Source of the DNA: Halopiger xanaduensis SH-6
GTDB taxonomy: Archaea; Halobacteriota; Halobacteria; Halobacteriales; Natrialbaceae
DNA: 64,000 bases
Assembly (NCBI RefSeq): GCF_000217715.1
Contig: NC_015666.1
Location: 1,624,270 to 1,688,269, forward strand
Reading direction: 5' to 3'
Shown here: positions 13,326-62,413 of the stretch, piece by piece
Numbering within the stretch: the first letter of the stretch is position 1
Layout: every line of letters starts with the position of its first letter
Position numbers and translations under genes: made by a program
The notes under the pieces: model-generated
The model's database searches: none
What the model saw: only the letters and a program-made list of their open reading frames with translations
Told to the model about the DNA's origin: nothing

Positions 13326-13345
13326 AAATGGTTAGGAGGTGAATC

Positions 13346-15632: not shown

Positions 15633-15659
15633 ACCGAACAACCGGTTAAGATCACGCCA

Positions 15660-16736: not shown

Positions 16737-16815
16737 TATTTGTCACTTAAAGATGAGTGGGTTGAAACATCTTAAAGAGTTTGATGACGTGTTTTCCCAT
16801 CGGTTGCACAGCCAT

Positions 16816-18060: not shown

Positions 18061-18252
18061 ACATTGGTAGCTTGATTTTCTGGTATAAATACCCTGTGAT
18101 CAGTCCTATCAAACCATTTTACGTTATATATAATGTAATTATACATAATTCGCTAGCATCATTATTGAGTTCATGGAAGCTGAGCTCACTATAGTCTGGT
18201 CTGGACAACATCGTACACCGCAGATCGCTTTGAGACACAGCTCAACGACCCC

Positions 18253-18458: not shown

Positions 18459-18561
18459 AACGACCCCAACCGAACCACTCTTATTTGGATAGATACATGG
18501 AATGCTCAACGGGCGTCTCACAAGATGACTAAATATCTATACACACTTTGACACATTTATG

Positions 18562-18568
18562 ATAAAAA
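18562..18568 (+). promoter_or_regulatory. TATA box of the flippase gene at 18593
   Basis: ATAAAAA is centred about 28 nt upstream of the ATG at 18593, matching a leaderless haloarchaeal promoter and supporting that start codon. Confidence 0.5.
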
Positions 18569-18592
18569 CTCCAATATTTCAAATATTCGATT

Positions 18593-20104: not shown

Positions 20105-20153
20105 CTGAATCAGTCGTTATCTATTTAGTGAACTCCACAGCAATAATACCTAT

Positions 20154-28023: not shown

Positions 28024-30441
28024 TCAGTCGCCGACCGAAACCGATTGACCGTTCAGAACGTCGTCCTCGGAAACGGTCACCGTCTGATTCCCAACTGCGT
28101 ACTCGCCTGCGTACGGGACCGTCACCGTCCCTTGGCCGTCGTCTCCGATAGCCACGTCGCGTTCGTAGGTGATCGACTCATCGGACACCGATACCGTCGT
28201 CTCGAGGGGCACGGACGAACCCGCCTCGCCGGAGACGTCGAGCGTCGCACCGGGGACGACTGCGAACGCAGCAACGTCGTCGTCGACGAAGAGCGCCTGG
28301 TAGTGGGCGACGCCGTCAGTTTCGTTCCCGGCCGAACCGTACCGCTCGAACAACTGCGCCTGCGTACTGTCTGCCGGCACATCCCGCTCGACGTCGGTGA
28401 GGACGACGTAGCCGACGCGGCCGTCGAACCGATCGTACCAGCCGTCGGGATCTGAACCGGTGACGAAATCGACGTAATTGCTCTGTGCGTAGCCGTACCC
28501 TTGCGACTCGCCATTCACAAAGTGGTTGTACATCCGGTTGTCGCCCCACTCGCTCAGCACGTAATTCGATGGGTACTCCCGCTCGACTGATCCGGCGTGA
28601 TCGTCGATCGCCTCGAGCGCGGCAACCTGTGAGTCGTCGTACGCCACATCGGAAGTCAACCCGGGCACGTAGATCAGACTCATACCGAACACGAGTAGGA
28701 AAATTCCGACGACGTACACGGCTGCACGACCATCGGGAAGCGCGATCGACGGCTCCGATCGACCGCCGTCCGAAGCCAACGACGGTGCCCGTGCGCGATC
28801 AGCCGGTGACGGCGAGTCGCCGCGGAACGGGACGGGACGACGCGCGAGATCGACCGCGGACAGCACGTACACGAACCCGAGTCCGCCGAGGATCGCGAGC
28901 GGAATCGCGAGTTGGCTGGCAAACCGAACCTGAATCCCCGCTAGCACCAGTAGATATCCTGTGTAAGTTCCGACGAGCAACCACCCGGGTTCGTATCGTC
29001 GATAGACGAGCCAGACCACCCAGCCCAGCACGACCAGTCCGAGATAGAATCCGACGCCGAGCTGGTACAGCGGACCGAAGAACACGGCATACTCCGTCGC
29101 GAACAGCGACATTGTCTCGCTCGCTCCTTCCCGGAAGAACAGATCGTCGATACGTTGCTGCGCTGCCGCCCAGTCTTCCGGACGCAATCGGCGGAAGGCG
29201 AACAGCCCGATGGCGGCGACCACTGCTTCGACGGCCACTAACCCGCCGAGATGTACTTCCCGCCGACGCCACAGTTCACCGAGCGTGAATACGACCGTTC
29301 CCCCGGCTAGCACCATCGCAGGCGTCGCCGAGACGAAGGTCTCGTGCCATCCCCATCGGACGTTTAACGTAATCGAAATCACCGCGCCCAACGCAAGTCC
29401 AGCCAACAGCGGAAGATTCGCCTGTAGCGACGGCACGCCTTCTCGAGCATCCATCGCCGCTCGCAGGGCGATGTATCCGGCCAGCGGGAGCAAGAGCAGC
29501 GGCGAGCCGCCCCACGCGTGCGTTCCGACAGCGACGGAAATTCCGAAGGTGCAGGCGACGACCCACGTCGCGGGCGATCGAAGGTGGTCCGAAACGACAC
29601 CGCCCGTCTCGAGACGATGTTGAAGATCAACCGCAAGCCATCCGAGCGTGAGTAGCGTCACGCCGAGCCAGAAGTACTGATGCAGCTGGTGATCGATGAA
29701 TCCCAGTTCTGTGTACACTACGTGTGTGGGCGTGACAGCGAAGAGTAGCACTGATGCGATCCCGACGCGAACGTCTCGAGTGAGTAAGACGGTCAGCTTG
29801 TAGATCAACGCAGCCAGCGCAACCGACGCGACGATCGGAAGCCAGGCGGCGACGATATCCGCTGCCCACTGATCACCACCGAGTAACTCGGCAAGAAACC
29901 AGTTAGTCGCGTGAGAGGAGGGACGCGTCCATCCGGTATCGACCAAGACACCGTAATCCGTCGGTCCGGACGACTTTGCCAGCAGTCGTTCCATCCAGTA
30001 GCGGAAGAAGTACGGATCGTTCCCGGGCGAGACGACGTATCCGCGCTGGAAAACGCGGTTGTAAACGAGCATCCGCGCGGCGGCGACGACCGCCAGCGCG
30101 CCGAGTAGCGCAGACAGCGCCCGTGCGTCAATATCATATTTGAACGAAAACGAACGCTCGTCTTGTGCATCGGTTGATTCCGTGACGATTTCGTCCCCTG
30201 CAAGAACCGCTTGGACGACCGGTTCATCCGCAACGCGATATTCACCATCGTGTTTCTCGACTATCCCACGGGACACTAGCTCACCAAAGGTTCCAGAATC
30301 CAGAGCGACATCGTCGAAGGTCCACGTCTCGGCGTCCACATCGACCTCGAGAACCGCTTCGAGCACCCGTTCCCCGTCCTCATGATCCTCGAGGAACGCG
30401 GTGGTCGCGTCCGCGACGGCACTCGAGTCGTCGTCAGTCAT
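28024..30441 (-). CDS. Divergent STT3/AglB-like oligosaccharyltransferase with winged-helix-like N-terminus
   Basis: 805 residues. Residues 1-90 are soluble and resemble a winged helix (helices, then GIVEKHDGEYRVADEP as a wing). About 13 membrane helices follow (about 100-600), with the acidic pairs GNDPYFFRYW and GFIDHQLHQYF in the positions of the STT3 first-loop Asp and DxD/ExD motifs. The C-terminal soluble domain has SEWGDNRMYNHF (about residue 630) where canonical AglB has WWDYGH, and ends in a beta domain. STT3 enzymes transfer lipid-linked glycan to Asn of secreted proteins; the altered acceptor-binding motif suggests a different acceptor or sequon. A broken relative lies at 9018. Function as an oligosaccharyltransferase is inferred. 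Confidence 0.75.
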   Translation of the reverse strand: MTDDDSSAVADATTAFLEDHEDGERVLEAVLEVDVDAETWTFDDVALDSGTFGELVSRGIVEKHDGEYRVADEPVVQAVLAGDEIVTESTDAQDERSFSFKYDIDARALSALLGALAVVAAARMLVYNRVFQRGYVVSPGNDPYFFRYWMERLLAKSSGPTDYGVLVDTGWTRPSSHATNWFLAELLGGDQWAADIVAAWLPIVASVALAALIYKLTVLLTRDVRVGIASVLLFAVTPTHVVYTELGFIDHQLHQYFWLGVTLLTLGWLAVDLQHRLETGGVVSDHLRSPATWVVACTFGISVAVGTHAWGGSPLLLLPLAGYIALRAAMDAREGVPSLQANLPLLAGLALGAVISITLNVRWGWHETFVSATPAMVLAGGTVVFTLGELWRRREVHLGGLVAVEAVVAAIGLFAFRRLRPEDWAAAQQRIDDLFFREGASETMSLFATEYAVFFGPLYQLGVGFYLGLVVLGWVVWLVYRRYEPGWLLVGTYTGYLLVLAGIQVRFASQLAIPLAILGGLGFVYVLSAVDLARRPVPFRGDSPSPADRARAPSLASDGGRSEPSIALPDGRAAVYVVGIFLLVFGMSLIYVPGLTSDVAYDDSQVAALEAIDDHAGSVEREYPSNYVLSEWGDNRMYNHFVNGESQGYGYAQSNYVDFVTGSDPDGWYDRFDGRVGYVVLTDVERDVPADSTQAQLFERYGSAGNETDGVAHYQALFVDDDVAAFAVVPGATLDVSGEAGSSVPLETTVSVSDESITYERDVAIGDDGQGTVTVPYAGEYAVGNQTVTVSEDDVLNGQSVSVGD

Positions 30442-30758: not shown

Positions 30759-33146
30759 TTAGTCCTGACGGCGCAGGGCCAGCATGGCGGCTGCGAGCAG
30801 GGCGATTGCGGCGACAGCAACGCCGAAGCCGGGCGTACCGTCGCTGGACTCGCCATCATCGTCGGAGCCGCTGTCCTCGGAGCCGCTGTCCTCGGAGCCG
30901 CTGTCCTCGGAGCCGCTGTCCTCGGAGCCGCTGTCGTCAGGCGTCTCTTCAGCAACGGTCAGGGTGCCACTGGCGGATTCGTCACCAGCAGTGACGCCCC
31001 AGCTGACGTCGCCAGCTTCCGAAGTGTCGAAGTCGTAGCTCTCGCTCCACTCGTCGCCGGGCTCGAGAGTGACGTTCTCGCTGGCGACGGGTTCGTCAGC
31101 GATGTCGACACCGATCTCGACTTCCTCGGCGGCGCCACCGTCGTTGGAGACGGTCACGTCGAGCGACGCGTCGTCACCAACGGTGACTTCGCCAGGCGCG
31201 GAAGTGTCGATGTTGATGTCAGGCTGACCGGCTTCGACGAGGACTGCGTCCTGCTCGTCCTCGCCGTCAACGTCAGTGTTCTCGGCTTCGATCGTGAACT
31301 CGGTGCCCGTGTCGTACTCGCTGAAGTCGTAGGTGGCGGTGAACGTACCGTCACTGGCGACTTCAACGTCTTCGGACTCCGTGAACGTACCGGAGGCGCG
31401 AACGGACGTGTCGACTTCGCTACCGGGCGCCGCGTTGGTCGTGCCGGTGATTTCAGCGTCTTCCGAGTTCGGGACTTCCTCGTTCGCGTCGTCGAGGCTC
31501 AGTTCGCCCTCTTCGATCGTGAACTCGTTCTCGATTTCAACCTCTTCGTCCTCATCGCTGACGAAGGGGTTGTCCTCGGTCACCGTGTACGTGAGGTCGT
31601 ACGACTGGTCGGTGTCGAAGTCATCGTCTCCCTGGTACTCGAGAGCAACGACGAGGTCACCGTCGTAGTCCTCGAGACTCGTTCCGGAAACGGTGAAGTC
31701 ATCGAGGTCCAGCTCGTTATCAGCGTTCGGGCTGGGGTCCTCGATCGTCATGTTAACGCCGACATCCTGGAAGAAGGTGCTCAGCGACTGACCATCTGCA
31801 CTTGACAGATCGCCATCAGTGTGGTTGGACAGTGCACCTTCGTGGCCGAAGTTCTCGATGCTCAGGAGCAGGTGGTCGCCGTCAGCGACGGTATCGCTGT
31901 CCGTGAGCGTCGCTTCTTCGAAGTCGTCACCGGTGAGTTCGTCGTCAGCCGGTGCGATCTGCGTCGTCACGTCACCGAAGTCGGACTTCTCTTCAACCAT
32001 GAAGTAGTCCGTATCGGTTTCGCCGTCGTCGGTTACGGACGAGTTGTCCATATCAACTTCGGTACCGGCCACCATCTCGTAATCGTGAGCGGCAAGGGGA
32101 TTACCCTGGCTTGGCGACGCACTCACGTTGGTCTCTTCGATGGTGACATCATCTTCGTATGCTTCGTGAACGCTCCAGCCGTGATTCTCGCCCGTGAAGT
32201 TGTGCGAGTACGTGTTGTACTGAAGCGTAATCTCGTCGAAACCGTCATCCGAGTCGTCCGTGAACTCGACTGCGGTCTGGAAGTTGTCGTCGTCCTCGTC
32301 ACCGATCTGAACAACACCGGTGTCGGTGTAATCCATGCTCACGGTGACGTTGATGAGATCGCCTTCTTCGCCCGAAGTGTCCCCAATGAAGCTAACGTCA
32401 GCCTCATCGTCGATCACTTCGACCGATGCGTTTTCTTCAGCCAGCGAATCGGTCGTTTCGAAGTCAAACTCGTAGTCGTCAGCGTCGATGTCGGTGAAGT
32501 TGGCGGAGAACTCTTGATCCTCGCCGATGTTCTTGAGCGTCAGAACATCTTCATCATCCTCGTAGGTATCCGAATCGGCCCAACCGCCGTTGTTAACGAA
32601 GATGTCCTCGAGGTCCTCGCCGTCGAGTCCGTCAGCCGTGACGTTCAGGTGCTGGTCGGAACGGTCAGACTCGATCGAGATATCCGTCGCACCGTCTTGC
32701 TGGACGGAGCTACGGTCGAACGCGATATCGAGGCTTTCAGTCGAACCCCAGAAGACGTGGCCATCCCAGGAACTGTTGTCGTCACCGACAACATTGATGT
32801 GATAACCTCGCTCTTCCAGGTCGTCAGTCTCGATAACTGCCGAGCCAGTGTCGCTGTCTATTCGCTGTTCTTCGACGACATCAGCATCACTGTCGACTTC
32901 AGCACCCTCTCGGATCTGAACAGCGTCAGCGTCTGTGCTGAAACCGGTGAGGTTGATTTCTTGACCGAGCCATGCATCTTCGAAGCTTTCCACGTTGTCT
33001 GCGTTGTATGACGGTCCAGCGTCTGTAGGGCCGTGACTAGCTACCGCGCCGCCCGCAAACGCTGCGGACATCGCAACAACAGACAGGACCATAATCGCTG
33101 CCAGGAACACTGCGCGTCCCTTTTCGCGATATGAATTTCCGCTCAT
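30759..33146 (-). CDS. csg: S-layer glycoprotein with PGF-CTERM anchor
   Basis: 795 residues. The N-terminus is a long signal peptide (YREKGRAVFLAAIMVLSVVA, cleavage after AGGAVA). The mature chain is very acidic and beta-rich with a conserved WLGQEINLTGFS near its start, and 12 N-x-S/T sequons can be counted (for example INLT, LNVT, ANFT, HNFT, VNMT, ENVT). A low-complexity SGSED tract precedes the C-terminal TPGFGVAVAAIALLAAAMLA helix and Arg-Arg tail, the PGF-CTERM signal processed by archaeosortase A, which replaces the helix by a lipid. It should build the outer lattice and be the main acceptor of the AglB pathway next door. The gene has its own promoter, a long leader and a terminator. 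Confidence 0.92.
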   Translation of the reverse strand: MSGNSYREKGRAVFLAAIMVLSVVAMSAAFAGGAVASHGPTDAGPSYNADNVESFEDAWLGQEINLTGFSTDADAVQIREGAEVDSDADVVEEQRIDSDTGSAVIETDDLEERGYHINVVGDDNSSWDGHVFWGSTESLDIAFDRSSVQQDGATDISIESDRSDQHLNVTADGLDGEDLEDIFVNNGGWADSDTYEDDEDVLTLKNIGEDQEFSANFTDIDADDYEFDFETTDSLAEENASVEVIDDEADVSFIGDTSGEEGDLINVTVSMDYTDTGVVQIGDEDDDNFQTAVEFTDDSDDGFDEITLQYNTYSHNFTGENHGWSVHEAYEDDVTIEETNVSASPSQGNPLAAHDYEMVAGTEVDMDNSSVTDDGETDTDYFMVEEKSDFGDVTTQIAPADDELTGDDFEEATLTDSDTVADGDHLLLSIENFGHEGALSNHTDGDLSSADGQSLSTFFQDVGVNMTIEDPSPNADNELDLDDFTVSGTSLEDYDGDLVVALEYQGDDDFDTDQSYDLTYTVTEDNPFVSDEDEEVEIENEFTIEEGELSLDDANEEVPNSEDAEITGTTNAAPGSEVDTSVRASGTFTESEDVEVASDGTFTATYDFSEYDTGTEFTIEAENTDVDGEDEQDAVLVEAGQPDINIDTSAPGEVTVGDDASLDVTVSNDGGAAEEVEIGVDIADEPVASENVTLEPGDEWSESYDFDTSEAGDVSWGVTAGDESASGTLTVAEETPDDSGSEDSGSEDSGSEDSGSEDSGSDDDGESSDGTPGFGVAVAAIALLAAAMLALRRQD
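30862..30936. repeat. Five 15-bp repeats coding SGSED in the S-layer protein
   Basis: The unit GGAGCCGCTGTCCTC (plus strand) is repeated about five times with one variant at the right-hand end. It encodes five Ser/Gly/Glu/Asp pentapeptides just before the PGF-CTERM motif, in the wall-spanning stalk region. Near-identical codon choice means it can expand or contract by slippage. Confidence 0.8.
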
Positions 33147-33730: not shown

Positions 33731-36640
33731 CTATACGGCTGGTTCGGTAGCTATCGGTGCAACCGAATCGACCGAGCTGGCCGGTTCATTGTCAGCGGAG
33801 TTGTTCTCTTCCGTGTCGTCGGTACTATCTCCGTTAGTTCCGTTGCTTCCGCTCTCATTACTCGAGTTTCCGTCGGTTGGATCTTCGAGTTCGACCTCCT
33901 CGAGATCGACGGAAACCGTCTCACCGTCGACGATTGCGGACTCAGTGACTTCGGTCTGTCCCTGATACTCGGTAACGCCAAGATCCTGTTCACCGGGCTG
34001 CTCGACCGAAACGACGTAGTCGCTGAGCGCTTCGACGCTACTGTTCGTATAACCGTCCTCGACGCTCAGTTCGTCGTTCGTCGCGTACGGCACCGTCAGT
34101 TCGAAGCTTCCATCCTCATTAACCGAAGCTTCCTGTTCGTAGGTGAATGTTCGTCCGGGATCGGTTTCGAGCTCGACCGCTGCGGTCACAGTCGCGTTTT
34201 CGACGATGGATTGGTCGTCGACGGTTCCGGTAATCGTTGCCCCCTCGACGCGCTCGAAGGTTTTGACGGTCGATGTGAGATGCGCATCCCACACCGGGAT
34301 CCCGAGTGACTGGTCGATCTCGTCGTTCTCACGCGCGTCAGCGAGATTCGCCTGTATCGCGGCCGTCTGGTTGCTCCAGCCCATTTCGAGCGGGATCGAA
34401 TAGTGTGGTAAGAGTTGCTGTCCTCTCTGCATTCCGCCGACAACTGCGTAGTCGTCGTTCTCGTGGACAAGGCGGTAGTGCTCCATTTCGTTCGCGTCCT
34501 GGAGGTACAGCGACGCCGTCGTCGTGTTGTAGTAGTTCTCGTTCGGCCCGGCGACCTGTTGTTGCTCGCCGTTGAACTCGTATTCCTTCGTGTCGTAGTA
34601 GTTACTGTAGCCGGGTCCGGTAAAGGCCGTCATCGCGCTGAACTTCCCGCCGGCCATCTGGTCGTCGATCATCACGTACCGGACGTCTTCGCCGCTGTCG
34701 TTGGTATCGGCAGCCAGTTGCTCGAGTTGCTCGTTCGATTCGTCGGTCGGCGATTCACCGGCGGCGATCGCGTCGAGGATGAGTTCGGCTCGCTCCTCGG
34801 AGGTCGCCGTCAAGAACGCCGATGACGATCTCGCATTTTGTTGGAAAGGGTTCGAGTGGGGAATCCGTTCGCCCTGGGTCGTAATCAGGTGTCCGTAGTC
34901 CCACCACGAGATCACGCCGTACGAACCTTTGGGATAGTCGTAATCGCCATCCTCCGGGTACTCGTAGGTACCGTAGTACTCGAGTTCGTCAGTGTTGTTC
35001 GCGTCCGCCCAGTCACCCGGCTCGGGCGTGTTTCCTTCGAGCCAGTGGTTCGCTTCCTCCCACGTCATCGCGTCGCTGTTCGGTCCAACGGATTCGGCGC
35101 TCCCCCACGCGGTTGCCGTCGCGATCGGCGGCAGCAACGGCGCGAACAGCAGAAGGACGACGATGACGACTGTGAGCACTTGATAGGTCTCGAGTTGTCT
35201 AACCGACTCAAGGCGCTTCGTAAGATCGAGATCGAAGAGTCGTACAACCTCCGCGACGAACGCGGCGTTAACGACGGCGATTGCGAGGACGAGGTAGTAC
35301 GAGAAACGAACCTGTGCCGCTGCCATACTAATCAAGAACAGCGACCAAACAATAACGAGCGTGTGCTCGGCACGGAATTTACGGCCGAAGAGTGGTCGAA
35401 TTGCGAGGAAGACAAGACCGATGAGCATCGTGTAGAACGCACTCCCTGACTCGGAGAAGACGTGGTTGAAATAGTTGTCCGGCGGTTGGACCTCTTGAAC
35501 GGTCAGTGCGGATTCGGATGCACCGACGGGCAGCAGTCGCCCCGTGAGGTTTCCAACGAGCGTACTGTAGAGGTCTGGGAGTACGAGCCAGATAAGTGCC
35601 AGCGCGCCGGCACCGATTCCGACAACTGCAGCGGGATAGTACCGACGATCGATACTTCGATTGTTCCACTCTCGGGCGAGCCAGGCCATGAAAAGACAGC
35701 CGACTGCGACCGAGAGTGCAAGGAGGGGTTGAAGGTAGCTGAAATTAGTGGTTCCAAATCCGGGTCGTTCGATCAGTATCGCCGTCACGAGCGTCGTGAC
35801 GCCGAGACTCACCGCACCGACGAATGCGATATGGTCTGGAGAGACTCCGCGGAGATAATCGAGACAGAGTTGCACGGCGAAGAATGCGCCGAAGATACCG
35901 ACGAGTACGACGCCAGACGGCCAAACCCAGATGTAAAGCGAGAGCGCGAGTCCGGCAAGGACGCTATAGAGGGCAGGCGTACGAAGCGGCTGCCAGTCCT
36001 TATCCGCGATCAGTTCGTAGATCGGTTTCTCCCGCTCTCCGACGGTCAGTGCGACCATCATCGCGAGGACCGCAATCGCCATAAACAGCGCCTCACCGAC
36101 GTGGTGGTCGAGCTGGCCGACGGTCGATCGCGAGAGGAACTGTCCGCGGGAAAGCGCGAGAATGATGATCGAGATGATGCCGCCAAGCGTCCCGCCGAGG
36201 CGTCGTCCCATGTAGAAGACGGGAATTGCGACGAGCGCCGCCATGAGCGGAATCGAAAGCAGCGACACCGTGTACAGCGTTTGGGCGGACGGATCGCCGA
36301 GCCCAACGATCATCGCCGCCGTGACGATCAGTTGATCGAAGAGCGTACCGAACTGGCCGACGTAATTCCCTTCCGGGAAGCCAGTCCAGATCTCGTACGG
36401 CATCGTGTGCGGATAGTTTTCCGCGGTCCACTGGATCGTTCGCCAGTGGTACCACGAGTCGATTCCCGCCAACGCAGGAGTTCCATCGCCAGTCGTGAAC
36501 CGATCGAACGACTGGGTCCGCAACCAGAACATAAACAGCATCACGGCCCCGATAATAGGGAAGTGATACCAGTTTCGCCACGTCGCGAGGGCGGAGGACG
36601 TATCGGACTCCTCCTCGACGTGTTCGGTATCCGTGCTCAT
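33731..36640 (-). CDS. aglB: Dolichyl-monophosphooligosaccharide-protein glycotransferase AglB
   Basis: 969 residues. About 13 membrane helices occupy roughly residues 25-500. The STT3 catalytic acidic sites are visible: AGIDSWYHWRTIQW in the first external loop and STVGQLDHHVGEALF further on. The soluble domain carries the acceptor-binding signature SWWDYGHLITTQGERIPHSN (WWDYG at about residue 579) and a C-terminal beta domain with an acidic Ser/Asn tail. AglB moves the assembled glycan from dolichol phosphate to Asn in N-x-S/T sequons outside the cell; the adjacent S-layer protein is its natural target. The ATG at 36640 is chosen because a TATA box lies 27 nt upstream; the TTG at 36664 overlaps that box. 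Confidence 0.95.
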   Translation of the reverse strand: MSTDTEHVEEESDTSSALATWRNWYHFPIIGAVMLFMFWLRTQSFDRFTTGDGTPALAGIDSWYHWRTIQWTAENYPHTMPYEIWTGFPEGNYVGQFGTLFDQLIVTAAMIVGLGDPSAQTLYTVSLLSIPLMAALVAIPVFYMGRRLGGTLGGIISIIILALSRGQFLSRSTVGQLDHHVGEALFMAIAVLAMMVALTVGEREKPIYELIADKDWQPLRTPALYSVLAGLALSLYIWVWPSGVVLVGIFGAFFAVQLCLDYLRGVSPDHIAFVGAVSLGVTTLVTAILIERPGFGTTNFSYLQPLLALSVAVGCLFMAWLAREWNNRSIDRRYYPAAVVGIGAGALALIWLVLPDLYSTLVGNLTGRLLPVGASESALTVQEVQPPDNYFNHVFSESGSAFYTMLIGLVFLAIRPLFGRKFRAEHTLVIVWSLFLISMAAAQVRFSYYLVLAIAVVNAAFVAEVVRLFDLDLTKRLESVRQLETYQVLTVVIVVLLLFAPLLPPIATATAWGSAESVGPNSDAMTWEEANHWLEGNTPEPGDWADANNTDELEYYGTYEYPEDGDYDYPKGSYGVISWWDYGHLITTQGERIPHSNPFQQNARSSSAFLTATSEERAELILDAIAAGESPTDESNEQLEQLAADTNDSGEDVRYVMIDDQMAGGKFSAMTAFTGPGYSNYYDTKEYEFNGEQQQVAGPNENYYNTTTASLYLQDANEMEHYRLVHENDDYAVVGGMQRGQQLLPHYSIPLEMGWSNQTAAIQANLADARENDEIDQSLGIPVWDAHLTSTVKTFERVEGATITGTVDDQSIVENATVTAAVELETDPGRTFTYEQEASVNEDGSFELTVPYATNDELSVEDGYTNSSVEALSDYVVSVEQPGEQDLGVTEYQGQTEVTESAIVDGETVSVDLEEVELEDPTDGNSSNESGSNGTNGDSTDDTEENNSADNEPASSVDSVAPIATEPAV

Positions 36641-36662
36641 TAGGTTGCACCAGACCCAAGTC

Positions 36663-36670
36663 AAAAATAA
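36663..36670 (-). promoter_or_regulatory. TATA box of aglB
   Basis: On the minus strand TTATTTTT is centred 27 nt upstream of the ATG at 36640, giving a leaderless aglB transcript and defining its start codon. Confidence 0.6.
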
Positions 36671-46848: not shown

Positions 46849-47610
46849 ATGCAAGCCGTCGTTCTCGCCGCCGGCAAGGGGACTCGCCTTCAGCCCCTCA
46901 CCGACGACAAACCAAAGGTGCTCGTCGAAGTCGACGGGAAGCCGATCATCGAAGACGTCTTCGACAACCTCCTCGAGATCGGTGCGAGCGAGTTTATCGT
47001 GGTCGTCGGCTACCAGAAAGAACAGATCATCGAACGCTACGGCGACGCCTACGAGGGTGTTCCCATCACGTACGCGCACCAGCGCGAGCAGTTGGGCCTC
47101 GCCCACGCGATCCTCCAGGCGGAGCCCCACGTCGACGGCGACTTCATGTTGATGCTCGGCGACAACGTCTTTCGCGCCAATCTAGCCGACGTCGTCAATC
47201 GCCAGCAGGAGGACCGAGCAGACGCGGCCTTCCTGGTCGAGGAAGTCCCCTACGAGGAGGCTTCGCGTTACGGCGTCCTCGATACCAACGAGTACGGCGA
47301 GATCGTCGAAGTGATGGAGAAACCGGACGATCCGCCGTCGAACCTCGTCATGACCGGTTTTTACACGTTTACGCCGGCGATCTTCCACGCCTGTCACCTC
47401 GTTCAGCCGAGCGACCGCGGCGAGTACGAACTCCCGGACGCGATCGATCTGTTGATCCAGTCAGGCCGGACGATCGACGCGATTCGCATGGACGGGTGGC
47501 GCGTCGACGTCGGCTATCCCGAGGACCGGGACAAAGCCGAAGCGCGCCTCTCCGGGGATTCGGTGCCGGACGAGAACGGTAACGATGACGAGAGTGACGG
47601 CGGAGAGTAA
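46849..47610 (+). CDS. aglF: Sugar-phosphate nucleotidyltransferase (AglF-like)
   Basis: 253 residues of nucleotidyl-transferase fold: QAVVLAAGKGTRLQPLTDDK with the G-x-G-T-R-L signature and the Lys of KPKVLVEVDGKPII; MLMLGDNVF provides the metal Asp; EKPDDPPSNLVMTGFYTF is the sugar-binding loop. It would make UDP-glucose or dTDP-glucose from hexose-1-phosphate, as AglF does in Haloferax. A purine-rich GGTGAGGG lies just upstream of the ATG and may act as a Shine-Dalgarno sequence. It ends 3 nt before the convergent TrmB-like gene. Confidence 0.8.
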   Translation: MQAVVLAAGKGTRLQPLTDDKPKVLVEVDGKPIIEDVFDNLLEIGASEFIVVVGYQKEQIIERYGDAYEGVPITYAHQREQLGLAHAILQAEPHVDGDFMLMLGDNVFRANLADVVNRQQEDRADAAFLVEEVPYEEASRYGVLDTNEYGEIVEVMEKPDDPPSNLVMTGFYTFTPAIFHACHLVQPSDRGEYELPDAIDLLIQSGRTIDAIRMDGWRVDVGYPEDRDKAEARLSGDSVPDENGNDDESDGGE

Positions 47611-47613: not shown

Positions 47614-48468
47614 CTACAGTTCCGGCCGCGTCTCGAGGCTCTCGTACTCCCAGATCAGGTCGAAGTACCGCTTCATCCCCGCGACGAACGAGCCGTTTTC
47701 GGTGATCGCGGCCTGCCGCCGGTGGTTCGGCACGTCGGTCTCTTCGACGAGGAAGATCGCTTTTCCGGAGTCATAGTCCATACTCGGATCGACGAACGTC
47801 CCACGCCAGGGGAGTCGCTCCTTACTGAAGCGGTACTCAATGGCCGGAAAGTCGCTCGCGATTCGGTCGACGATCTCCGCCTGCGTGGCCGCCTTCTCCG
47901 CCGGCAAGTGCCGCTGATCGAGAAAGAGCACCGAAACGGGAGTGTCCTCCTCGAGCGCGGCTTCCACGGCCGGCTCGATGTCGTCGAAGTACGCGAAGCT
48001 GTTCGTGATGACGTAGACGCCGTCCGTCGCGTTCCGGTAGAGCTGCCGGGTTTCGGTCTCGCTGGGCTGGCCGACGTCGACGACGTGGAACAGTTCGGAC
48101 GTCGGCGTCACGTCCCCGTCCGCTCGCTCGTATCGCGGGCCGAACACCTCGAGAAACTCTCCGCGGAGGTCCTCGATCTCAGCGCAGTAATCCTCGTATC
48201 GCTGTCGCCGATTTTCCTTCGCTCGCTCGAGGATCTCCTCGGGCGACTTCGGCTGGTACTGTTTCGGTCGGCCGGGGATCACCTCGATGAAGCCGTAGTC
48301 GGCCAGCGACTCGAGGACGCCGTACACCCGTGCCTGCGGGATGTCCGTCGCGTCCGAGATGTCCGGGGCGGTGGTTCGACCGGCGCTCAGCAGGTGCGCG
48401 AGCGCCGTCGCCTCGTACTCTTTGAGATCTAACTGCTGGAGCAGGTCGGTCGGTCCGGTACCTACCAT
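47614..48468 (-). CDS. TrmB-family transcriptional regulator
   Basis: About 284 residues. The N-terminal winged helix (about 8-75) reads LLQQLDLKEYEATALAHLLS and DIPQARVYGVLESLADYGFI, followed by a coiled helix with many Arg and Glu residues and a C-terminal sensor domain (about 120-284) typical of sugar-responsive TrmB proteins. These repress or activate sugar-metabolism genes according to a bound ligand. The ATG at 48468 avoids overlap with the stop codon of the preceding epimerase at 48471; the gap is 2 nt, so it is co-transcribed with the SDR genes and may control the cluster. Confidence 0.8.
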   Translation of the reverse strand: MVGTGPTDLLQQLDLKEYEATALAHLLSAGRTTAPDISDATDIPQARVYGVLESLADYGFIEVIPGRPKQYQPKSPEEILERAKENRRQRYEDYCAEIEDLRGEFLEVFGPRYERADGDVTPTSELFHVVDVGQPSETETRQLYRNATDGVYVITNSFAYFDDIEPAVEAALEEDTPVSVLFLDQRHLPAEKAATQAEIVDRIASDFPAIEYRFSKERLPWRGTFVDPSMDYDSGKAIFLVEETDVPNHRRQAAITENGSFVAGMKRYFDLIWEYESLETRPEL

Positions 48469-48470
48469 AG

Positions 48471-49463
48471 CTATGCGCATCGTCGTAACAAGTCCCTAAC
48501 CGATTCCTCGACTGTGTGTCGCGCCTCCCACTCGAGGACCTCGTTGGCCTTCGAGGTGTCGACGGCGAAGTCCTCGACCATCGTCTCGTCGCTTCGAGGG
48601 TTCTCGACGAGTTCGACGTCAACTGTCTTGTCCAATTCCTCGCGGGCGAGGTCCCGAACCGTCTCCGCGACTTCCATGACCGAGGGGTCCTCGTTCCCTG
48701 CGATTTCGCACGTCTCTATACCGGTTTCGTCGTTTGCTAGCTGTGTGAACATCCGTTCGGCGCTCCGGACGTACGCCCTGGCGACGTCTTTGACGTGGAC
48801 GAAGTTCCGGGACTGGGTTCCCGGTTCGTACACCGTCAGCGGTTCGCCCGCCGTCGCTCGCTCGACGAAGAAGTTGATCACGGTCGGCTTCGAGACGACG
48901 GTCTCGTCGACGGTGTGATCGCCGTACAGGTTCGACTTCAGGAACAGGTGTGCCGGGAACGCACCGTCGGCGAACGACTCGATAGCCCGTTCGCCGAGGA
49001 GCTTCGTCCGCCCGTACCAGTTGAACGGGTCCCGCGGCAGGTCGGCGGTGATCGGGAACTGCTCGGGGTCACCCAGTACCGCCATACTGAACGGGAAGAC
49101 GAGCCCAGTCCCGGTCTTCCGGCAGAACCAGGCGACGTTGTTCGTTCCCGTGACGTTGACCTCGTAGGCCAGATCGGGGTTCTCGTCGCAGTCGTCGACG
49201 CCGCTGACCGCCGCGAGGTGCAGGACGATGTCTGCACCGTCGAGGGCTTCCTCGAGTCGCCGTCGATCGCGAACATCGACGTGGGTGACGTCGGTCTCGC
49301 CGATCGACTCGACCTGTCCGCGGTAGTAGTTGTCGAGCGCGCGGAGGGTCCAGTTGGGGTGCGTCGACTGCAGTTGCTGCACGACGCGACTGCCGATGTA
49401 TCCGGCCGCGCCGGTGATCGCAATCGTCGGTTTGGTTCCGTCGATCGTGTCGGGTGCAGTCAT
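48471..49463 (-). CDS. NAD-dependent epimerase/dehydratase (SDR)
   Basis: About 330 residues. IAITGAAGYIGSRVVQQLQ is the dinucleotide motif; NWYGRTKLLGERAIE holds the Tyr-x3-Lys pair; FVHVKDVARAYVRSAERM is a common extended-SDR C-terminal motif. It likely converts one nucleotide sugar to another (epimerase or 4,6-dehydratase). Start at the ATG 49463, two nucleotides after the stop codon of the upstream SDR gene, so 48-51.7 kb form a tightly packed unit of three SDR genes and the regulator. Confidence 0.8.
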   Translation of the reverse strand: MTAPDTIDGTKPTIAITGAAGYIGSRVVQQLQSTHPNWTLRALDNYYRGQVESIGETDVTHVDVRDRRRLEEALDGADIVLHLAAVSGVDDCDENPDLAYEVNVTGTNNVAWFCRKTGTGLVFPFSMAVLGDPEQFPITADLPRDPFNWYGRTKLLGERAIESFADGAFPAHLFLKSNLYGDHTVDETVVSKPTVINFFVERATAGEPLTVYEPGTQSRNFVHVKDVARAYVRSAERMFTQLANDETGIETCEIAGNEDPSVMEVAETVRDLAREELDKTVDVELVENPRSDETMVEDFAVDTSKANEVLEWEARHTVEESVRDLLRRCA

Positions 49464-49465: not shown

Positions 49466-50431
49466 TTACGCTTCGAGCCTCGTCGAGGGCGTTCGCTCTC
49501 CTTGCAGTCGCTTCGCAAGATCGCGGATCCCCTCGCGGAGCGTCCACTCGGGTTCGAATCCCGTCTCCGAGAGCCGGTCGAAGTTCACGTGGTACGACGG
49601 TCCCGGATGCTCATCTTCGAGGAAGGTGATGTCGAGGTCGCGCTCGAGGCCGAGTTCGTCGCGGACGATCGACGCGATGTGGGCGATCCGGTAGTTCTCC
49701 TCGGTCGCACCGACGTTGTAGACCGTTTTGGGCCACGATTCGGGCTCGAGGAGCGCGTGGGCGTACGCTCGCGCCGCGTCCTCGACGTGGATGAACGGCC
49801 GCCAGTTGGTGCCGTCGCCGTACACCGTCAGCGGCCGCTCGGTCAGGCTGCGGAAGACGAAGTGGTTCACGACGAGGTTGAACCGGACGCCCGGCGCCCA
49901 GCCGTAGTTCGTGCTCATGCGCAGCGCCGTTCCGTCGAAGCCGTAGTCGTCGATCGCGTCGGCGAGCAACTGCTCGGATTCGACCTTCGACTCCGCGTAG
50001 GGGTTGAGCGGATTCTGCTTGGTCGTCTCGTCGATGTTCGTACTGGCCGTCCGTCCGTAGTTGTTGCACGACGACGCGAAGACGACGGAATCGACGTCGA
50101 GCTTGCCGGCGGCGGTGAGGACGTTGGCCGTCCCGTCGCGGTTGACCGCGAACGTTTCCTCGCGGCGGTCGTGCGTCGATGCCGCGCCCGTGATCGCCGC
50201 AAGGTGAACGACGCGGTCGACGCCCCGCATCGCGCTCTCGACATCGCCGTACTCGCGAACGTCACCGCGTCGGAATTCCAGGCTGTCGCCGATACAGCCC
50301 CGGAGATTCGCCGGCGATCCCGACGCAAGTGAATCGAAGACGACGACCTCGTCGACACGCTCGTCCTCGAGCAACTTCGGAACGAGTGCGCTCCCGATGT
50401 AGCCGCAGCCACCGGTCACGAGCACGCGCAT
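49466..50431 (-). CDS. NAD-dependent epimerase/dehydratase (SDR)
   Basis: About 321 residues. MRVLVTGGCGYIGSALVPKL is the dinucleotide motif; SSCNNYGRT and NPYAESKVESEQLL form the catalytic Ser/Tyr-x3-Lys region; MSTNYGWAPGVRFNLVVNHF is the substrate loop. It starts 1 nt after the UDP-sulfoquinovose-synthase-like gene ends. The reaction is not assignable beyond nucleotide-sugar epimerase/dehydratase; the pair of adjacent SDRs suggests successive steps on one sugar. Confidence 0.8.
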   Translation of the reverse strand: MRVLVTGGCGYIGSALVPKLLEDERVDEVVVFDSLASGSPANLRGCIGDSLEFRRGDVREYGDVESAMRGVDRVVHLAAITGAASTHDRREETFAVNRDGTANVLTAAGKLDVDSVVFASSCNNYGRTASTNIDETTKQNPLNPYAESKVESEQLLADAIDDYGFDGTALRMSTNYGWAPGVRFNLVVNHFVFRSLTERPLTVYGDGTNWRPFIHVEDAARAYAHALLEPESWPKTVYNVGATEENYRIAHIASIVRDELGLERDLDITFLEDEHPGPSYHVNFDRLSETGFEPEWTLREGIRDLAKRLQGERTPSTRLEA

Positions 50432-50432: not shown

Positions 50433-51680
50433 TCACTCGGCCTCGATGTCAGCAGACTGTGGTTCGTCAGACGAGGAACTCGAGTCCTTGGCTGCGATCG
50501 ATTCGGCCTCCGCGTCGGCCAACACATCCGGCAGGAACCGATCTTCGTGTGCCTCGACACGAACCTGATACTCGACTAGCGTGTCGAGCACGTCCCTAAC
50601 ACCCTCCTTGAACGTCGTCAACTGGCCGTCGATTAGGTCGGCATACCGGTCATTCTCGATCTCCATTTTGTGGGTCTCGTCCTCCTCGCGTGGGTTTTCG
50701 AAGTGTTCGACGTCGACGTCGAGCCCAAACTCATTCGAGACATCAGCGATTGTCTCTGCGATTTCGACAATGCTGATCGCGCGGGTCACCTGGTTGTAGA
50801 CGACGTGATCGTCCGGTCGGTCATCTGGATCGATGAGCGCTAACCGCGCGAGCCCCTCGACGGCGTCCTCGAGCGCGATGAACGGCTTGCGCTGTTCGCC
50901 CTTCCCGTAGACCGTCATCGGGTAGCCGGCGACGGCCTGTGCGCAGAACCGGTGGGCGACGACCCCGAAGTAGTAGTCGAAGTCGAACCGGGTCGCCAGC
51001 CGCGGATCCGCGGCCGTCTCCTCGGTTTCGGCCCCGTAGGTGATTGCGGTCCGAACGTCGGAGATCGGGATGTCGAACTGGTCGTGGGCCAGGCGCATGT
51101 TGGCTGCGTCGTGGGATTTCGTCAGGTGGTACCAGCTGCCGGCCATCGCGGGGAACGGCACCTCGTCGCGCTCGCCCTGATTCTCCATCGTCGCGCCGCC
51201 CTCGGGGATCGGGAACTCCGGTGCACCGTAGACGCCGGTCGTCGTCGTCTCGATGAAGTGCGTGTCGGTCAGGTCGTGTTCCTCGAGTCCCCACAGAAGG
51301 TTGCGCGTCGCCTGGAGGTTGTTGTGCTGGGTATAGTTCGCCCGCTCGCCGTTGATCTGCGAGTACGGCGCGGAGGGCTGTGCGGCGGTGTGGACGATCG
51401 CCTCCGGTTCGTGGACCGTCAGCAGCCGGTCGACTGCGTCTTTGTCGGCGAGGTCGGCTTCGACGAACGAGAGGTTCGTGAGGCCGTGGACGTCTTCGGC
51501 AGCCTCGAGTCGCTCGTCTATCTCGGCGACAGGAACGGCGCTCGTCGAGCCGACGGACTTGACCCACTCCCGTCGTCCGAAGTTGTCGACGAGGACGACG
51601 CGATCGTCTGTGCGATTTGCGATTCGAAGGGCAGTCGGCCAGCCGATGTAGCCGTCGGCACCGGTTACGAAGACAGTCAT
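50433..51680 (-). CDS. agl3: UDP-sulfoquinovose-synthase-like protein (SQD1/Agl3)
   Basis: 415 residues of extended SDR. Distinctive SQD1-type motifs are present: VTGADGYIGWPTALRIANR, VDNFGRREW, QPSAPYSQINGERANYTQHN, the triad Thr in TTTTGVYGAPE and Tyr-x3-Lys in WYHLTKSHDAANM, RFDFDYYFGVVAHRFCAQA, and VYGKGEQRKPFIALED. SQD1 (plants, bacteria) and Agl3 (Sulfolobus) add sulfite to UDP-glucose to give UDP-sulfoquinovose, used for sulfolipid or N-glycan respectively. The last 60 residues form a Ser/Glu-rich extension. In this agl cluster a sulfonated sugar in the N-glycan is the obvious inference. Confidence 0.85.
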   Translation of the reverse strand: MTVFVTGADGYIGWPTALRIANRTDDRVVLVDNFGRREWVKSVGSTSAVPVAEIDERLEAAEDVHGLTNLSFVEADLADKDAVDRLLTVHEPEAIVHTAAQPSAPYSQINGERANYTQHNNLQATRNLLWGLEEHDLTDTHFIETTTTGVYGAPEFPIPEGGATMENQGERDEVPFPAMAGSWYHLTKSHDAANMRLAHDQFDIPISDVRTAITYGAETEETAADPRLATRFDFDYYFGVVAHRFCAQAVAGYPMTVYGKGEQRKPFIALEDAVEGLARLALIDPDDRPDDHVVYNQVTRAISIVEIAETIADVSNEFGLDVDVEHFENPREEDETHKMEIENDRYADLIDGQLTTFKEGVRDVLDTLVEYQVRVEAHEDRFLPDVLADAEAESIAAKDSSSSSDEPQSADIEAE

Positions 51681-53414: not shown

Positions 53415-54758
53415 CTATCGATATCCGAGCTGTTCGAGCCGATCCTCCACCATTCCGGATACTTCCGTTTGGACGTTCGTTCCGTCTGGCCATGCGGGTA
53501 ACGCATCGATCATCGTATTCCGACGATCAGCGGGAACATCGACTAACTCCTCTTCGGACACCTCGTATCCAACCTCGACGTCATCACCCCTTGAGACGAT
53601 CAATTTGTACGCTCCGTCGTAGACTGCTTTCTTCTCGTATCCGCTGAGACTGCCCTCGACTAACAGTTGTCGATTTTCGGGAATTTCTCCGCGTAACGAA
53701 TGACCAGTCATCTCTGGACCAGAGACCCCGACAGAATCCGTAATCGTCGGTGCGATGTCGATGAGGGAGACGTCAGAATCAAACGTCCAATCGGCGTTCG
53801 TCAATAGCGGAACGCGAGCGAGCGCCTCGTACGGAGCGCCACCGTGATCGACGCAACCGGTTCCATTGAAGTGTTCGACGTCGAATTCGACTTGTTCCCA
53901 GAGCGCTTCACCGTGGTCCGCAGTAACGATCAGCAACGGATCGTCGAGTGCGTTCTCGAGGCCAGTCTCGAACCGGGAAAGCGCATCGTCGACGTAGTCG
54001 ACGGACGCGCGGTACAGCCGTCGACGGTGTTCTCGATAGGACTGACAGTCCTCACTACAGTCGGTATCGGTTCGATAGCGCCAGTTCTCAAGGTCGTCGA
54101 TAGACGTATCGATGTCGTGTTTCTTCCAGTACTCCGAGGGCGGATCGACGGGAATGTGGGGGTCCGCGAGATGTAAGAACGCGAACGTCCGAGTCCGATC
54201 GGAAACCCACTCAAGGTAGTCCTCGAGAACGTCGTCCGCATCGGAGTTCATTTTGTGATAAAGTGCGTGATCGTGGAATCGTCCGGAAACGGCGACGAAC
54301 GGTGTATCGTGTCCGAATCCGCCATAAGTGTCATAACCGGCTCCAGCAAGGATCTCCGTGAGCGTTACGCGATCTTCGTCCATTCGGGGCGGCAGCGAGA
54401 GTCCATCAGAATTGTCGAATTCGTCTGTCTGCTTCATTGCACCGTGTTCGTGTGGGTAAATGCCGGTTAGAAGCGAGGAAACCGCTGGGAAGGTCCACGC
54501 GCCCGGCGTCACGGCGTCGGTGCCGTTTAGGCTTGCGAGATAGGGCGTCGTCTCGTCGTCGACGTAGTCGGCGCGGAGCGCGTCGACCACGATACAGACG
54601 ATGTGATCCGGTGCGTCGTCCGCCGGATCCAGTTCGGGGAGTGCCTTCTCGGCAAATGCGGCGTCCGCTTTTCGCGTCTGATACCGGTCATAGGGGGCGG
54701 CGAGTAACCGTTTCGCCCACGGCGGAAGGGTCTCGATCAGCGCCCGCTTGAGATTCAT
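53415..54758 (-). CDS. Sulfatase-like enzyme (alkaline phosphatase superfamily)
   Basis: About 447 residues. Metal-site motifs: IVCIVVDALRADYVDDETTP, LADPHIPVDPP, IVTADHGEALWEQ and VDHGGAPYEAL. The nucleophile region reads PGAWTFPAVSSLLTGIYPHE, with Thr-x-Pro-Ala instead of the formylglycine motif Cys-x-Pro-Ser-Arg. Ends RLEQLGYR like its paralogues. Substrate may be a phosphodiester or sulfate ester on a glycan. The ATG at 54758 (MNLKRALIETLPPW) is preferred because upstream residues do not resemble protein of this family. Confidence 0.75.
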   Translation of the reverse strand: MNLKRALIETLPPWAKRLLAAPYDRYQTRKADAAFAEKALPELDPADDAPDHIVCIVVDALRADYVDDETTPYLASLNGTDAVTPGAWTFPAVSSLLTGIYPHEHGAMKQTDEFDNSDGLSLPPRMDEDRVTLTEILAGAGYDTYGGFGHDTPFVAVSGRFHDHALYHKMNSDADDVLEDYLEWVSDRTRTFAFLHLADPHIPVDPPSEYWKKHDIDTSIDDLENWRYRTDTDCSEDCQSYREHRRRLYRASVDYVDDALSRFETGLENALDDPLLIVTADHGEALWEQVEFDVEHFNGTGCVDHGGAPYEALARVPLLTNADWTFDSDVSLIDIAPTITDSVGVSGPEMTGHSLRGEIPENRQLLVEGSLSGYEKKAVYDGAYKLIVSRGDDVEVGYEVSEEELVDVPADRRNTMIDALPAWPDGTNVQTEVSGMVEDRLEQLGYR

Positions 54759-54901
54759 CGCTAGACAATTCGTCCTAATCCTCTTTTGTCCTTTGCAACC
54801 GTAGCGGCCGCCGCCCGTCTCGGACTTCGCTCGCGGGACGGATAATACGATGATATAGGAACAGACAGATATTAACCTCACCCTTCGAAAGGCCAGTCTG
54901 A

Positions 54902-57084: not shown

Positions 57085-58536
57085 ATGAAACCGAACGTAC
57101 TCTTGATCGTTCTTGACAGCGTTCGTGCGAGGAACACGAGCCTCCACGAACACGCGAACGATACGACGCCCTTTCTGAACGAGTTTGCCGAATCCGCGAC
57201 CCGCTATCGACAGGCGCGTGCACCGGGAACGACTAGCGTGACCAGCCACGCGAGTATATTTACCGGACTCCACGTGAACGAACATCGGGTGACGAGTGCG
57301 GAGGCGAAACTGAGCGAAGGGGCGACGGTCTTCGAACGGCTTAGGGACGAACACGGTTACGAGACCGGCGTCTTCTCCGAAAACGTCTGGATCACCGACG
57401 TAGATATCGGTCTCGACCACGGGTTCGATACGGTCGTCGGTCCGCAGGACGTCCCGTATCCCGACGCGCTGAATCCGAGGTCATTCGTCTCGGACAGAGG
57501 AACGGGCCGTTTCACTGAGTACGTCAGAGAATGCCTGCGTGACGATGCGCCGCTGAGGGGACTAATCAACGGCGCGTACACGAAGATATCGTCGGACTAT
57601 CCGTCTCTCCTACCGAGTTTCATCGACGGCACGTCGCCGGGGAACCTCTACACCGATAAGTTTCTCGATTGGATTGATACGACGGTGAACGACGAATGGG
57701 CGGCGTGTGTCAACCTCATGGACGCTCACCTGCCCTACAATCCGAAGGAGGAATTCAACGAGTGGGGCGATGATCTGCTTCGGACGATCGAAGACGAGGC
57801 CGTCGACCAATGGCAACTCCACTGCGGTGACGGGTTATGGTGGCGCCAAAAAGCCCGCGAGGCGCTCTACGATGGCGCCATCCGACAGGCCGATTCCTAC
57901 GTTCAACGAATTATCGACGGACTCGAGGAGCGAGGCGTTCTCGACGATACGCTCGTCGTCATCACGAGCGACCACGGCGAAGGGTTCGGTGAACGGAGTC
58001 GCATACGTCCCGCTCGGATCGCCGGCCATAACGTGTCCGTTCACGAAGTTCTCCTACACGTTCCCCTCGTGGTCAAACGGCCGGGTCAACGGAACGCACA
58101 CGAGGTCGACTCCGTCGCGACCTTGGCGCGGTTCCCGACGGTAGTGGAGAACGCGCTCGAGGGAGCGACCGCTCCCGACGGCTTCGTCCCCGACCGTCCG
58201 GTCGTGGCATCGAGCTACCGGATCACGGACGACGAGAGTCTCAAGGCGCGAGCCCTCGAACACTGTGACGACCTGAGCGCGTTCGAGTCCTTTACTCACG
58301 TCGTCTACGAGGACGACGACGACGTGGTCCGAAAGTACATCACCTGGAAAGACAGGGAAGCGACCGTCGAGATCAGGAACGCGCAAGACTCGTACAAGGT
58401 ATCGAACACCGGCGGTCGAAAAGTCCGTGAGGTGTTCGGCGAGATGGAGGAAGCAGCCGTCAGAGCGGAAGGGAGTGGCACCGACGACCTCGACGAGGCG
58501 ACGTACGATAGGCTCGAGAAGCTGGGATACGTATAG
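57085..58536 (+). CDS. Sulfatase-like enzyme (alkaline phosphatase superfamily)
   Basis: 483 residues. Metal-site motifs: VLLIVLDSVRARNTSLHEHA, NLMDAHLPYNP and VVITSDHGEGFGE, IAGHNVSVHEVLLHVPLVVK. Around the nucleophile the sequence is RAPGTTSVTSHASIFTGLHV: Thr residues but no Cys-x-Pro-Ser-Arg, as in the other two paralogues. Ends RLEKLGYV. Third sulfatase-like gene of the cluster; activity may be phosphotransfer or phosphodiester cleavage rather than desulfation. Confidence 0.75.
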   Translation: MKPNVLLIVLDSVRARNTSLHEHANDTTPFLNEFAESATRYRQARAPGTTSVTSHASIFTGLHVNEHRVTSAEAKLSEGATVFERLRDEHGYETGVFSENVWITDVDIGLDHGFDTVVGPQDVPYPDALNPRSFVSDRGTGRFTEYVRECLRDDAPLRGLINGAYTKISSDYPSLLPSFIDGTSPGNLYTDKFLDWIDTTVNDEWAACVNLMDAHLPYNPKEEFNEWGDDLLRTIEDEAVDQWQLHCGDGLWWRQKAREALYDGAIRQADSYVQRIIDGLEERGVLDDTLVVITSDHGEGFGERSRIRPARIAGHNVSVHEVLLHVPLVVKRPGQRNAHEVDSVATLARFPTVVENALEGATAPDGFVPDRPVVASSYRITDDESLKARALEHCDDLSAFESFTHVVYEDDDDVVRKYITWKDREATVEIRNAQDSYKVSNTGGRKVREVFGEMEEAAVRAEGSGTDDLDEATYDRLEKLGYV

Positions 58537-58644: not shown

Positions 58645-59223
58645 ATGAGACTAGTACAGAAACTGCGACGACGGGTAAAAGACTCAATTTATCGGTTCTG
58701 GGGAATATATAGCCATCTCGGATCGGACGCGTACATCTCCGAACTCGAATCGCGCGGTTGTGAGGTTGGTGAGGGAACAAGGTTTTATGGAGAAAACAAC
58801 GTCGATCTCGGATACGCTCCTCAAATATCTATCGGGAAAAACTGTATAATAACTGACAAAGTGCGGATGCTCGCCCACGCTAAGGATAAACCCATCCTAT
58901 CTCAAGCCTTCGATACTGCTCCGAACTATTCAAAGAGGGGAACGATCGATATCGGAGACAACGTATTTCTAGGGGAACGAACAATTGTTCTACCCGACGT
59001 ATCTATCGGTGATAACGTCATTATCGGTGCCGGTTCAGTAATCTCCTCAGACATTCCTTCTAATTCTGTTGCAGTCGGTGTCCCGTGTGAAGTTAAATGT
59101 TCGTTAGAAGAGTATCGTGACCGCCGCCTCAGTACCGAGGAGGCTGATATCGAAGAAGTCACTGAATGCTATCGGGACCAGAATCGGCCCTTCCCCGACT
59201 GGTTAAGGAGTAATACTGAGTGA
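58645..59223 (+). CDS. Hexapeptide-repeat acyltransferase (LbH fold)
   Basis: 192 residues. After a basic helix the chain shows left-handed beta-helix turns: GEGTRFYGENNVDLGYAPQI, IDIGDNVFLGERTIVLPDVS, IGDNVIIGAGSVISSDIPSN, and the closing VAVGVPCEVK typical of WbbJ/Maa/NeuD-type O-acetyltransferases. It would acetylate a sugar hydroxyl using acetyl-CoA. AT-richer than the genes on either side, like its convergent neighbour at 59240, with which it may have been acquired. Confidence 0.8.
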   Translation: MRLVQKLRRRVKDSIYRFWGIYSHLGSDAYISELESRGCEVGEGTRFYGENNVDLGYAPQISIGKNCIITDKVRMLAHAKDKPILSQAFDTAPNYSKRGTIDIGDNVFLGERTIVLPDVSIGDNVIIGAGSVISSDIPSNSVAVGVPCEVKCSLEEYRDRRLSTEEADIEEVTECYRDQNRPFPDWLRSNTE

Positions 59224-59239
59224 AATACACTGTGTGCTG

Positions 59240-61727: not shown

Positions 61728-61752
61728 CTGCCGGAACCGCAGTGGCACGGTA

Positions 61753-62406: not shown

Positions 62407-62413
62407 GTAGACG

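Follow-up and report, generated by a model that had tools for sequence, protein, structure and literature searches.

A haloarchaeal subfamily of SQD1-like proteins in an S-layer glycosylation setting: candidate UDP-sulfoquinovosamine synthases

Introduction

The question raised by this locus is which nucleotide sugar, if any, is sulfonated by an SQD1-like protein in a haloarchaeon. The stretch of DNA analyzed here, termed the window, comprises 64,000 nucleotides of the 4.36 Mb genome of Halopiger xanaduensis SH-6, a member of the Natrialbaceae, and carries a gene, termed SQD below, that the initial annotation had described as resembling a UDP-sulfoquinovose (UDP-SQ) synthase and had taken to point to a C-sulfonated sugar on the S-layer. 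The annotation also started from haloarchaea not being known for sulfoquinovosyl lipids, a premise that is outdated. A Haloquadratum walsbyi operon of SqdB and two GalE homologues was described, and sulfolipids proposed for it, by Bolhuis 2006 (PMC1544339); the haloarchaeal homologues of SQD were set apart as a separate cluster IV and treated as UDP-SQ synthases by Zolghadr 2015 (PMC4388408); and the S-layer N-glycan of Haloarcula hispanica was reported to be 6-sulfo-QuiN-(1,6)-[Glc-(1,2)]-Gal (Lu 2015, cited in PMC9943897), with DolP-QuiNS present in the membranes of the same organism (PMC9943897).

In the available portions of Bolhuis 2006 and Zolghadr 2015, UDP-sulfoquinovose and a sulfolipid were assumed or no sugar was assigned, and neither the active-site change nor the GlmS/GlmU linkage described below was found there. 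The present analysis adds the subtype residues, the family-wide three-SDR arrangement and GlmS/GlmU linkage, and the proposal of an amino sugar, none of which was found in the accessible text of the literature examined. In that literature, UDP-sulfoquinovose synthases were the sole enzymes of the SQD1 fold found described as placing sulfur directly on a sugar carbon.

Results

An SQD1-family gene

The minus-strand ORF of SQD (Table 1) is intact, and the plus strand across the same interval is interrupted by stops. A phmmer comparison aligned residues 3–354 collinearly with PDB entries 1QRR and 1I24 of Arabidopsis SQD1 (E 1.9e-67, 231 bits), and the three motifs named in the initial annotation are all present, SAPYS at residues 103–107, YTQHNN at 116–121 and YHLTKSHD at 184–191. 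An AlphaFold2 model of SQD was built from 36 haloarchaeal sequences, with a mean pLDDT of 77 and values below 50 in the active-site loops 102–112, 148–160 and 178–183. When this model was searched against the PDB with Foldseek, the best three matches were SQD1 entries (E ~1e-30, TM 0.74–0.79, 31–32% identity in the structural alignment), and the next-best match reached only 6e-18, more than 10 orders of magnitude weaker. The likeness to Arabidopsis SQD1 takes in the fold, full-length collinearity, the Thr/Tyr/Lys triad, the His beside the Tyr, and the SAPYS and QHNN motifs.

The gene and its homology to SQD1 are as the initial annotation had proposed; its strand, a score under the curated cut-off and altered active-site residues had not been mentioned there. 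The label 'UDP-sulfoquinovose synthase' is doubtful, because SQD scores 348 bits against the 575 bits demanded by the NCBIfam UDP-SQ synthase equivalog NF041015, and because Arg101 and Met145 are replaced. The NF041015 cut-off was reached in none of 296 genomes of the phylum.

Table 1. Features of the window discussed in the text.
Feature	Position	Strand	Description
Divergent second STT3/AglB-like protein	28024..30441	minus	TIGR04154 score of 100 bits is under the cut-off; weak match to AglB_L1
S-layer-type surface glycoprotein	30759..33146	minus	halo_sig_pep, BGTF domain, PGF-CTERM over cut-off
AglB oligosaccharyltransferase	33731..36664	minus	TIGR04154, 856 bits > 450; STT3, AglB core and AglB_L1 domains
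AglF, UTP--glucose-1-phosphate uridylyltransferase	46849..47610	plus	NF041313, 437 bits > cut-off 400
TrmB-family regulator (PF01978)	47614..48480	minus	Start 48480 or 48468; last operon gene
SDR2	48471..49463	minus	GalE-like extended SDR, 330 aa, ATG 49463; FP-SMAV-GDP and YGRTK motifs
SDR1	49466..50431	minus	GalE/RmlB-like extended SDR, 321 aa, ATG 50431; ASSCN-YG and YAExK motifs
SQD	50433..51680	minus	SQD1/Agl3-family extended SDR, 415 aa, Pro102/Thr148 (P/T) subtype

Active-site residues and the Pro/Thr subfamily

Agl3 of Sulfolobus acidocaldarius, an enzyme of the SQD1 family, works in the S-layer N-glycosylation of that archaeon, and the available part of its description reports that alanine at His95, Arg101, Met145, Tyr182 or Lys186 abolished activity (Zolghadr 2015, PMC4388408). 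On alignment to SQD1, two of these positions depart from Agl3, with Arg101 replaced by proline (P102) and Met145 by threonine (T148) in 80 of 80 haloarchaeal relatives. Residues T147, Y184, K188, H185 and H97 were kept in the same 80 sequences. Compared with Arabidopsis SQD1, the haloarchaeal protein has P for R101, T for the M, A for the E that precedes the Q, and R/T for N/Q at 210–211, in addition to being encoded in a three-SDR operon; Arg210 was considered a candidate stand-in for the lost Arg101. The NAD-site GxxGxxG is retained, and the SQD1-specific SAPYS, QHNN and YH-TK elements are almost invariant in the family. The fingerprint given for SQD1/Agl3 in the accessible text of a review is [ST]MGxnYx3K, the acid and base being described there as not known; the corresponding region of SQD reads TTTGVYG, with TTG where the fingerprint has [ST]MG. 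The change of Glu147 to Val was rejected as a diagnostic loss, since Val is also found in the S. meliloti and Palleronia homologues.

The Pro/Thr pattern is common to a second haloarchaeal clade (~65% identity) and to homologues in other Halobacteriota. In six sequences termed R-type, the Arg is kept in all and the second site is M, L or I. In a tree without crenarchaeal sequences, the Pro/Thr sequences (n=32) formed one branch with support of 100/100 apart from the R-type, a grouping that fits cluster IV; the stem to this clade was long, at 1.68 changes per site in a tree that carries a long-branch warning and leaves the placement of L108 unsure. The same gene as L108 was also present as L128 (7959–9479, G251), with Ser for Arg101 and the Met kept (EISSAPYS, GTMGEMG). 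It adjoins GlmU-GlmS-GlmU and a TrmB gene, and is possibly of an intermediate type.

The initial annotation had held that loss of the sulfite-binding residues relative to SQD1 would speak against a sulfonated sugar. What was found is that the Agl3-essential Arg101 and Met145 are absent in all 80 relatives, so that the reaction may have been altered or lost. This weakens the name UDP-sulfoquinovose synthase but does not refute sulfonation, because the literature examined leaves the sulfite-binding residues unstated.

A conserved operon with two partner SDRs

SQD opens a tight, single-strand operon in which SDR1, SDR2 and TrmB come next. The ATG of SDR1 lies 1 bp past the SQD stop and that of SDR2 2 bp past the SDR1 stop, in keeping with the coupling to two SDR genes and a TrmB regulator suggested at the outset. 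Across 89 haloarchaeal loci, SDR1 adjoined SQD in 86 and SDR2 was near it in 83, the strand being the same in every case. A TrmB-family gene was near SQD in 37 of these loci, in 9/9 clade B loci and in several loci outside Halobacteria. The operon of H. walsbyi belongs to the same family, and the J07HQW1 locus of that species (L071) has SQD-SDR1-SDR2. SQD1 and Agl3 form UDP-SQ without partner SDRs, whereas the haloarchaeal SQD comes with both. Attempts to assign a function to SDR1 and SDR2 from the PDB or NCBIfam failed, the matches being only to generic epimerases and dehydratases. No sulfite-supply gene was found within the SQD operon.

Three SQD homologues, 79–85% identical to P0001, are carried on one chromosome of Natrinema zhouii (L009, L012 and L032), and each of them adjoins at least SDR1.

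N-glycosylation genes in the window

AglB lies ~14 kb and the S-layer-type gene ~17 kb from SQD, and the protein encoded by the latter is a possible acceptor of the glycan. AglF is convergent with the SQD operon and is the nearest nucleotidyltransferase to it, being a glucose-1-phosphate enzyme. The description of the locus as part of an N-glycosylation cluster therefore holds for this genome, with AglB, AglF and an S-layer-type gene in the window, but not for the family as a whole. Among the matches listed, SQD was within 25 kb of the best-scoring AglB in only 8 of 58 genomes, and the AglB neighborhood was rejected as a family-wide trait.

In several Haloarcula loci (for example L023, 11169–13571), the gene that immediately follows SDR2 encodes a protein resembling the divergent second STT3/AglB-like protein of the window. 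These divergent proteins score 100–140 bits, below the cut-off. They could represent a second oligosaccharyltransferase, which is of interest in view of the missing AglB-independent transferase of Haloferax.

Linkage of SQD to GlmS and GlmU

A GlmS-family gene, of which a representative scores over the TIGR01135 cut-off, was found near SQD in 31 of 89 haloarchaeal loci and shared the strand of SQD in 28 of these. In the second haloarchaeal clade it was present in 9/9 loci, where the gene order is TrmB-SQD-SDR1-SDR2-NTase-(NTase)-GlmS or has GlmS upstream. The first NTase of one locus (L099) was identified as Arch_glmU, with a score of 553 against a cut-off of 292. Outside Halobacteria, locus L127 is arranged SQD-SDR1-SDR2-GlmU-GlmU-GlmS, and L119 shows a variant of this order with another SDR. 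In the R-type locus L129, which is from the same phylum, inspection of ORF starts across its 15 kb contig revealed neither GlmS nor GlmU.

The linkage was also evident at the level of whole genomes. GlmS was no more than 20 kb from SQD in 35 of the 54 genomes with a listed GlmS, against a random expectation of 0.7. For the 36 genomes in which SQD, GlmS and AglB were all listed, pairs within 25 kb were counted, and SQD-GlmS pairs were found in 24, GlmS-AglB pairs in 5 and SQD-AglB pairs in 5; the GlmS and AglB positions are those of the best-scoring matches listed, and related genomes are not independent. The idea that SQD-GlmS linkage is a by-product of general glycan islands was rejected on the basis of the 24/36 against 5/36 for GlmS-AglB. 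In H. xanaduensis, SQD is separated by ~20 kb from its closest GlmS and GlmU-like genes, which lie beside nonulosonate-like genes.

Distribution and the Haloarcula glycan

The SQD gene was found in 100 of 233 good Halobacteriales genomes, representing 40 of 74 genera. In Haloarcula it was present in 31/32 genomes, including 28/28 good ones, at one copy each, and no second SQD was detected in Haloarcula genomes at E<=1e-60. From this genus-wide presence, we infer that H. hispanica itself carries SQD. No synthase of the H. hispanica 6-sulfo-QuiN was found named in the literature examined, as far as its available text extends.

The mass published for the H. hispanica glycan was compared with calculated values. 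For a bis-PMP-labeled trisaccharide of two Hex and one sulfoquinovosamine the calculated m/z is 898.30, in agreement with the published 898, and for the same PMP-labeled trisaccharide with sulfoquinovose instead it is 899.29, which does not fit the published value. The Haloarcula glycan provides a precedent for C-sulfonation of an S-layer sugar in haloarchaea, in a genus whose genomes carry SQD of the family studied here. The idea of such a sugar, put forward in the initial annotation, is strengthened by this combination.

Discussion

Proposed function

One interpretation of these data, to which we give roughly even chances, is that the SQD module is a UDP-sulfoquinovosamine synthase that supplies an amino sugar to S-layer glycans by an SQD1-type mechanism. 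It would be the simplest way to reconcile an SQD1 fold and a rebuilt active site with linkage to GlmS/GlmU and with the Haloarcula glycan. The initial annotation had not considered an amino sugar, to which the GlmS/GlmU linkage points. Several findings weigh against this interpretation, namely the replacement of Arg101 and Met145, the score under the NF041015 cut-off, the ~20 kb between the operon and the GlmS and GlmU-like genes of this genome, with nonulosonate-like genes beside the latter, AglF as the nucleotidyltransferase nearest to the operon, the lack of a sulfite-supply gene in it, and the presence of partner SDRs that SQD1 and Agl3 do not need.

The proposed pathway, including the catalysis, substrate, product and acceptor, would run as follows. 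As in SQD1 and Agl3, C4 of a UDP-hexose would be oxidized by NAD+, water would be lost across C5–C6, sulfite would be added at C6, and C4 would be re-reduced to give a 6-C-sulfonated UDP-sugar. The natural substrate would be an amino sugar, UDP-GlcNAc or UDP-GlcN, and the product UDP-sulfoquinovosamine (6-sulfo-QuiN), which might initially be N-acetylated. The sulfo-sugar would then be passed to dolichol phosphate and on to S-layer N-glycans through the AglB machinery. SDR1 and SDR2 would act in the same pathway, and TrmB is a putative regulator of the operon. A further system acting on UDP-GlcNAc was compared and would share the first steps with SQD, namely C4 oxidation and water loss at C5–C6; it differs in having TCE and TDK for acid and base, in the absence of sulfite addition, and in lying outside the SQD1 family.

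A wider reading is held more tentatively and falls a little short of even chances. It would have an archaeal SQD1 subfamily, with a Pro/Thr active site and two dedicated SDRs, sulfonate UDP-GlcNAc or UDP-GlcN at C6, would treat TrmB-SQD-SDR1-SDR2-GlmU-GlmS as an inherited unit in haloarchaea and other Halobacteriota, and would identify the subfamily with the missing 6-sulfo-QuiN synthase of Haloarcula. If true, the sulfonation reaction would be shown to be re-targetable to another sugar through a different active site, partner SDRs and amino-sugar genes, and a synthase would be assigned to a published haloarchaeal S-layer glycan. Caution would also be called for with the automatic labels 'UDP-sulfoquinovose synthase' and 'sulfolipid biosynthesis' for a gene present in ~40% of Halobacteriales genomes.

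Alternative explanations

An ordinary UDP-sulfoquinovose synthase acting on UDP-glucose, with the S-layer N-glycan bearing sulfoquinovose itself, as it does in Sulfolobus, and the active-site changes tolerated or compensated, appears unlikely but is kept as a rival. It would accord with SQD1 as the best match by both sequence and fold, with the treatment of cluster IV as UDP-SQ synthases in the accessible text of Zolghadr 2015 (PMC4388408), and with AglF, which makes UDP-glucose, adjoining the operon and also being near SQD in other loci. SQ-Hex repeats have moreover been reported on the S-layer of Haloferax volcanii (Parente 2014, in the part available); however, H. volcanii is reported, again in text seen in part, to lack an Agl3 homologue. 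The replacement of two Agl3-essential residues in 80/80 relatives and the score of SQD below the curated cut-off count against this explanation, as do the linkage to GlmS/GlmU and the identification of the published Haloarcula sulfo-sugar as an amino sugar in the available text.

The next explanation in rank, also judged improbable, is that SQD is a non-sulfonating epimerase, oxidoreductase or dehydratase derived from SQD1, which together with SDR1 and SDR2 would make a sulfur-free rare nucleotide sugar. The replacement of the [ST]MG fingerprint within TTTGVYG and the long Pro/Thr stem could be taken in this sense, and a multi-step interconversion is suggested by the need for two SDR partners. 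Against it stand the near invariance of SAPYS, QHNN and YH-TK and the single SQD of Haloarcula, the genus for which a sulfo-amino sugar is published, where no second one was detected at E<=1e-60; nor is Glu147 to Val a diagnostic difference.

That the operon makes a sulfolipid head group replacing phospholipids, as proposed in the available text on the Haloquadratum SqdB and two GalE operon, is very improbable given AglB, AglF and an S-layer gene as neighbors in the window, an STT3-like gene directly downstream in Haloarcula, and Haloarcula publications that, in the parts available, show a sulfonated S-layer glycan and DolP-QuiNS and no sulfoquinovosyl lipid.

Other genes of the glycan island

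At window positions 61062–63427 are genes for a cytidylyltransferase (PF02348) and PseG (159 bits against a cut-off of 153.55). Beyond the window, at L130 373–4714 (G000 C3:1688372–1692713), ORF starts resemble NeuB, a DegT aminotransferase and two SDRs. Judged by sequence resemblance, these two groups of genes are likely to form a pseudaminic/legionaminic-type pathway adjoining the candidate sulfo-sugar operon.

Several glycosyltransferase, flippase-like and unknown genes at 9933–20993 and 58645–60889 have a low third-position GC of 0.40–0.53, against 0.7–0.85 around them, which suggests that parts of the glycan island were recently gained. Two sulfatase-family proteins (PF00884) are encoded at 53415–54881 and 57085–58536, within 7 kb of the SQD operon on its upstream side, and a cysteine-synthase-like gene is present at 41263–42351. 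A plasmid of the bacterium Pseudonocardia autotrophica (L089, 12001–15476) carries an SQD homologue with 42% identity, in which the Arg is kept, and a PLP-dependent cysteine-synthase-like gene is located 1.2 kb downstream of it.
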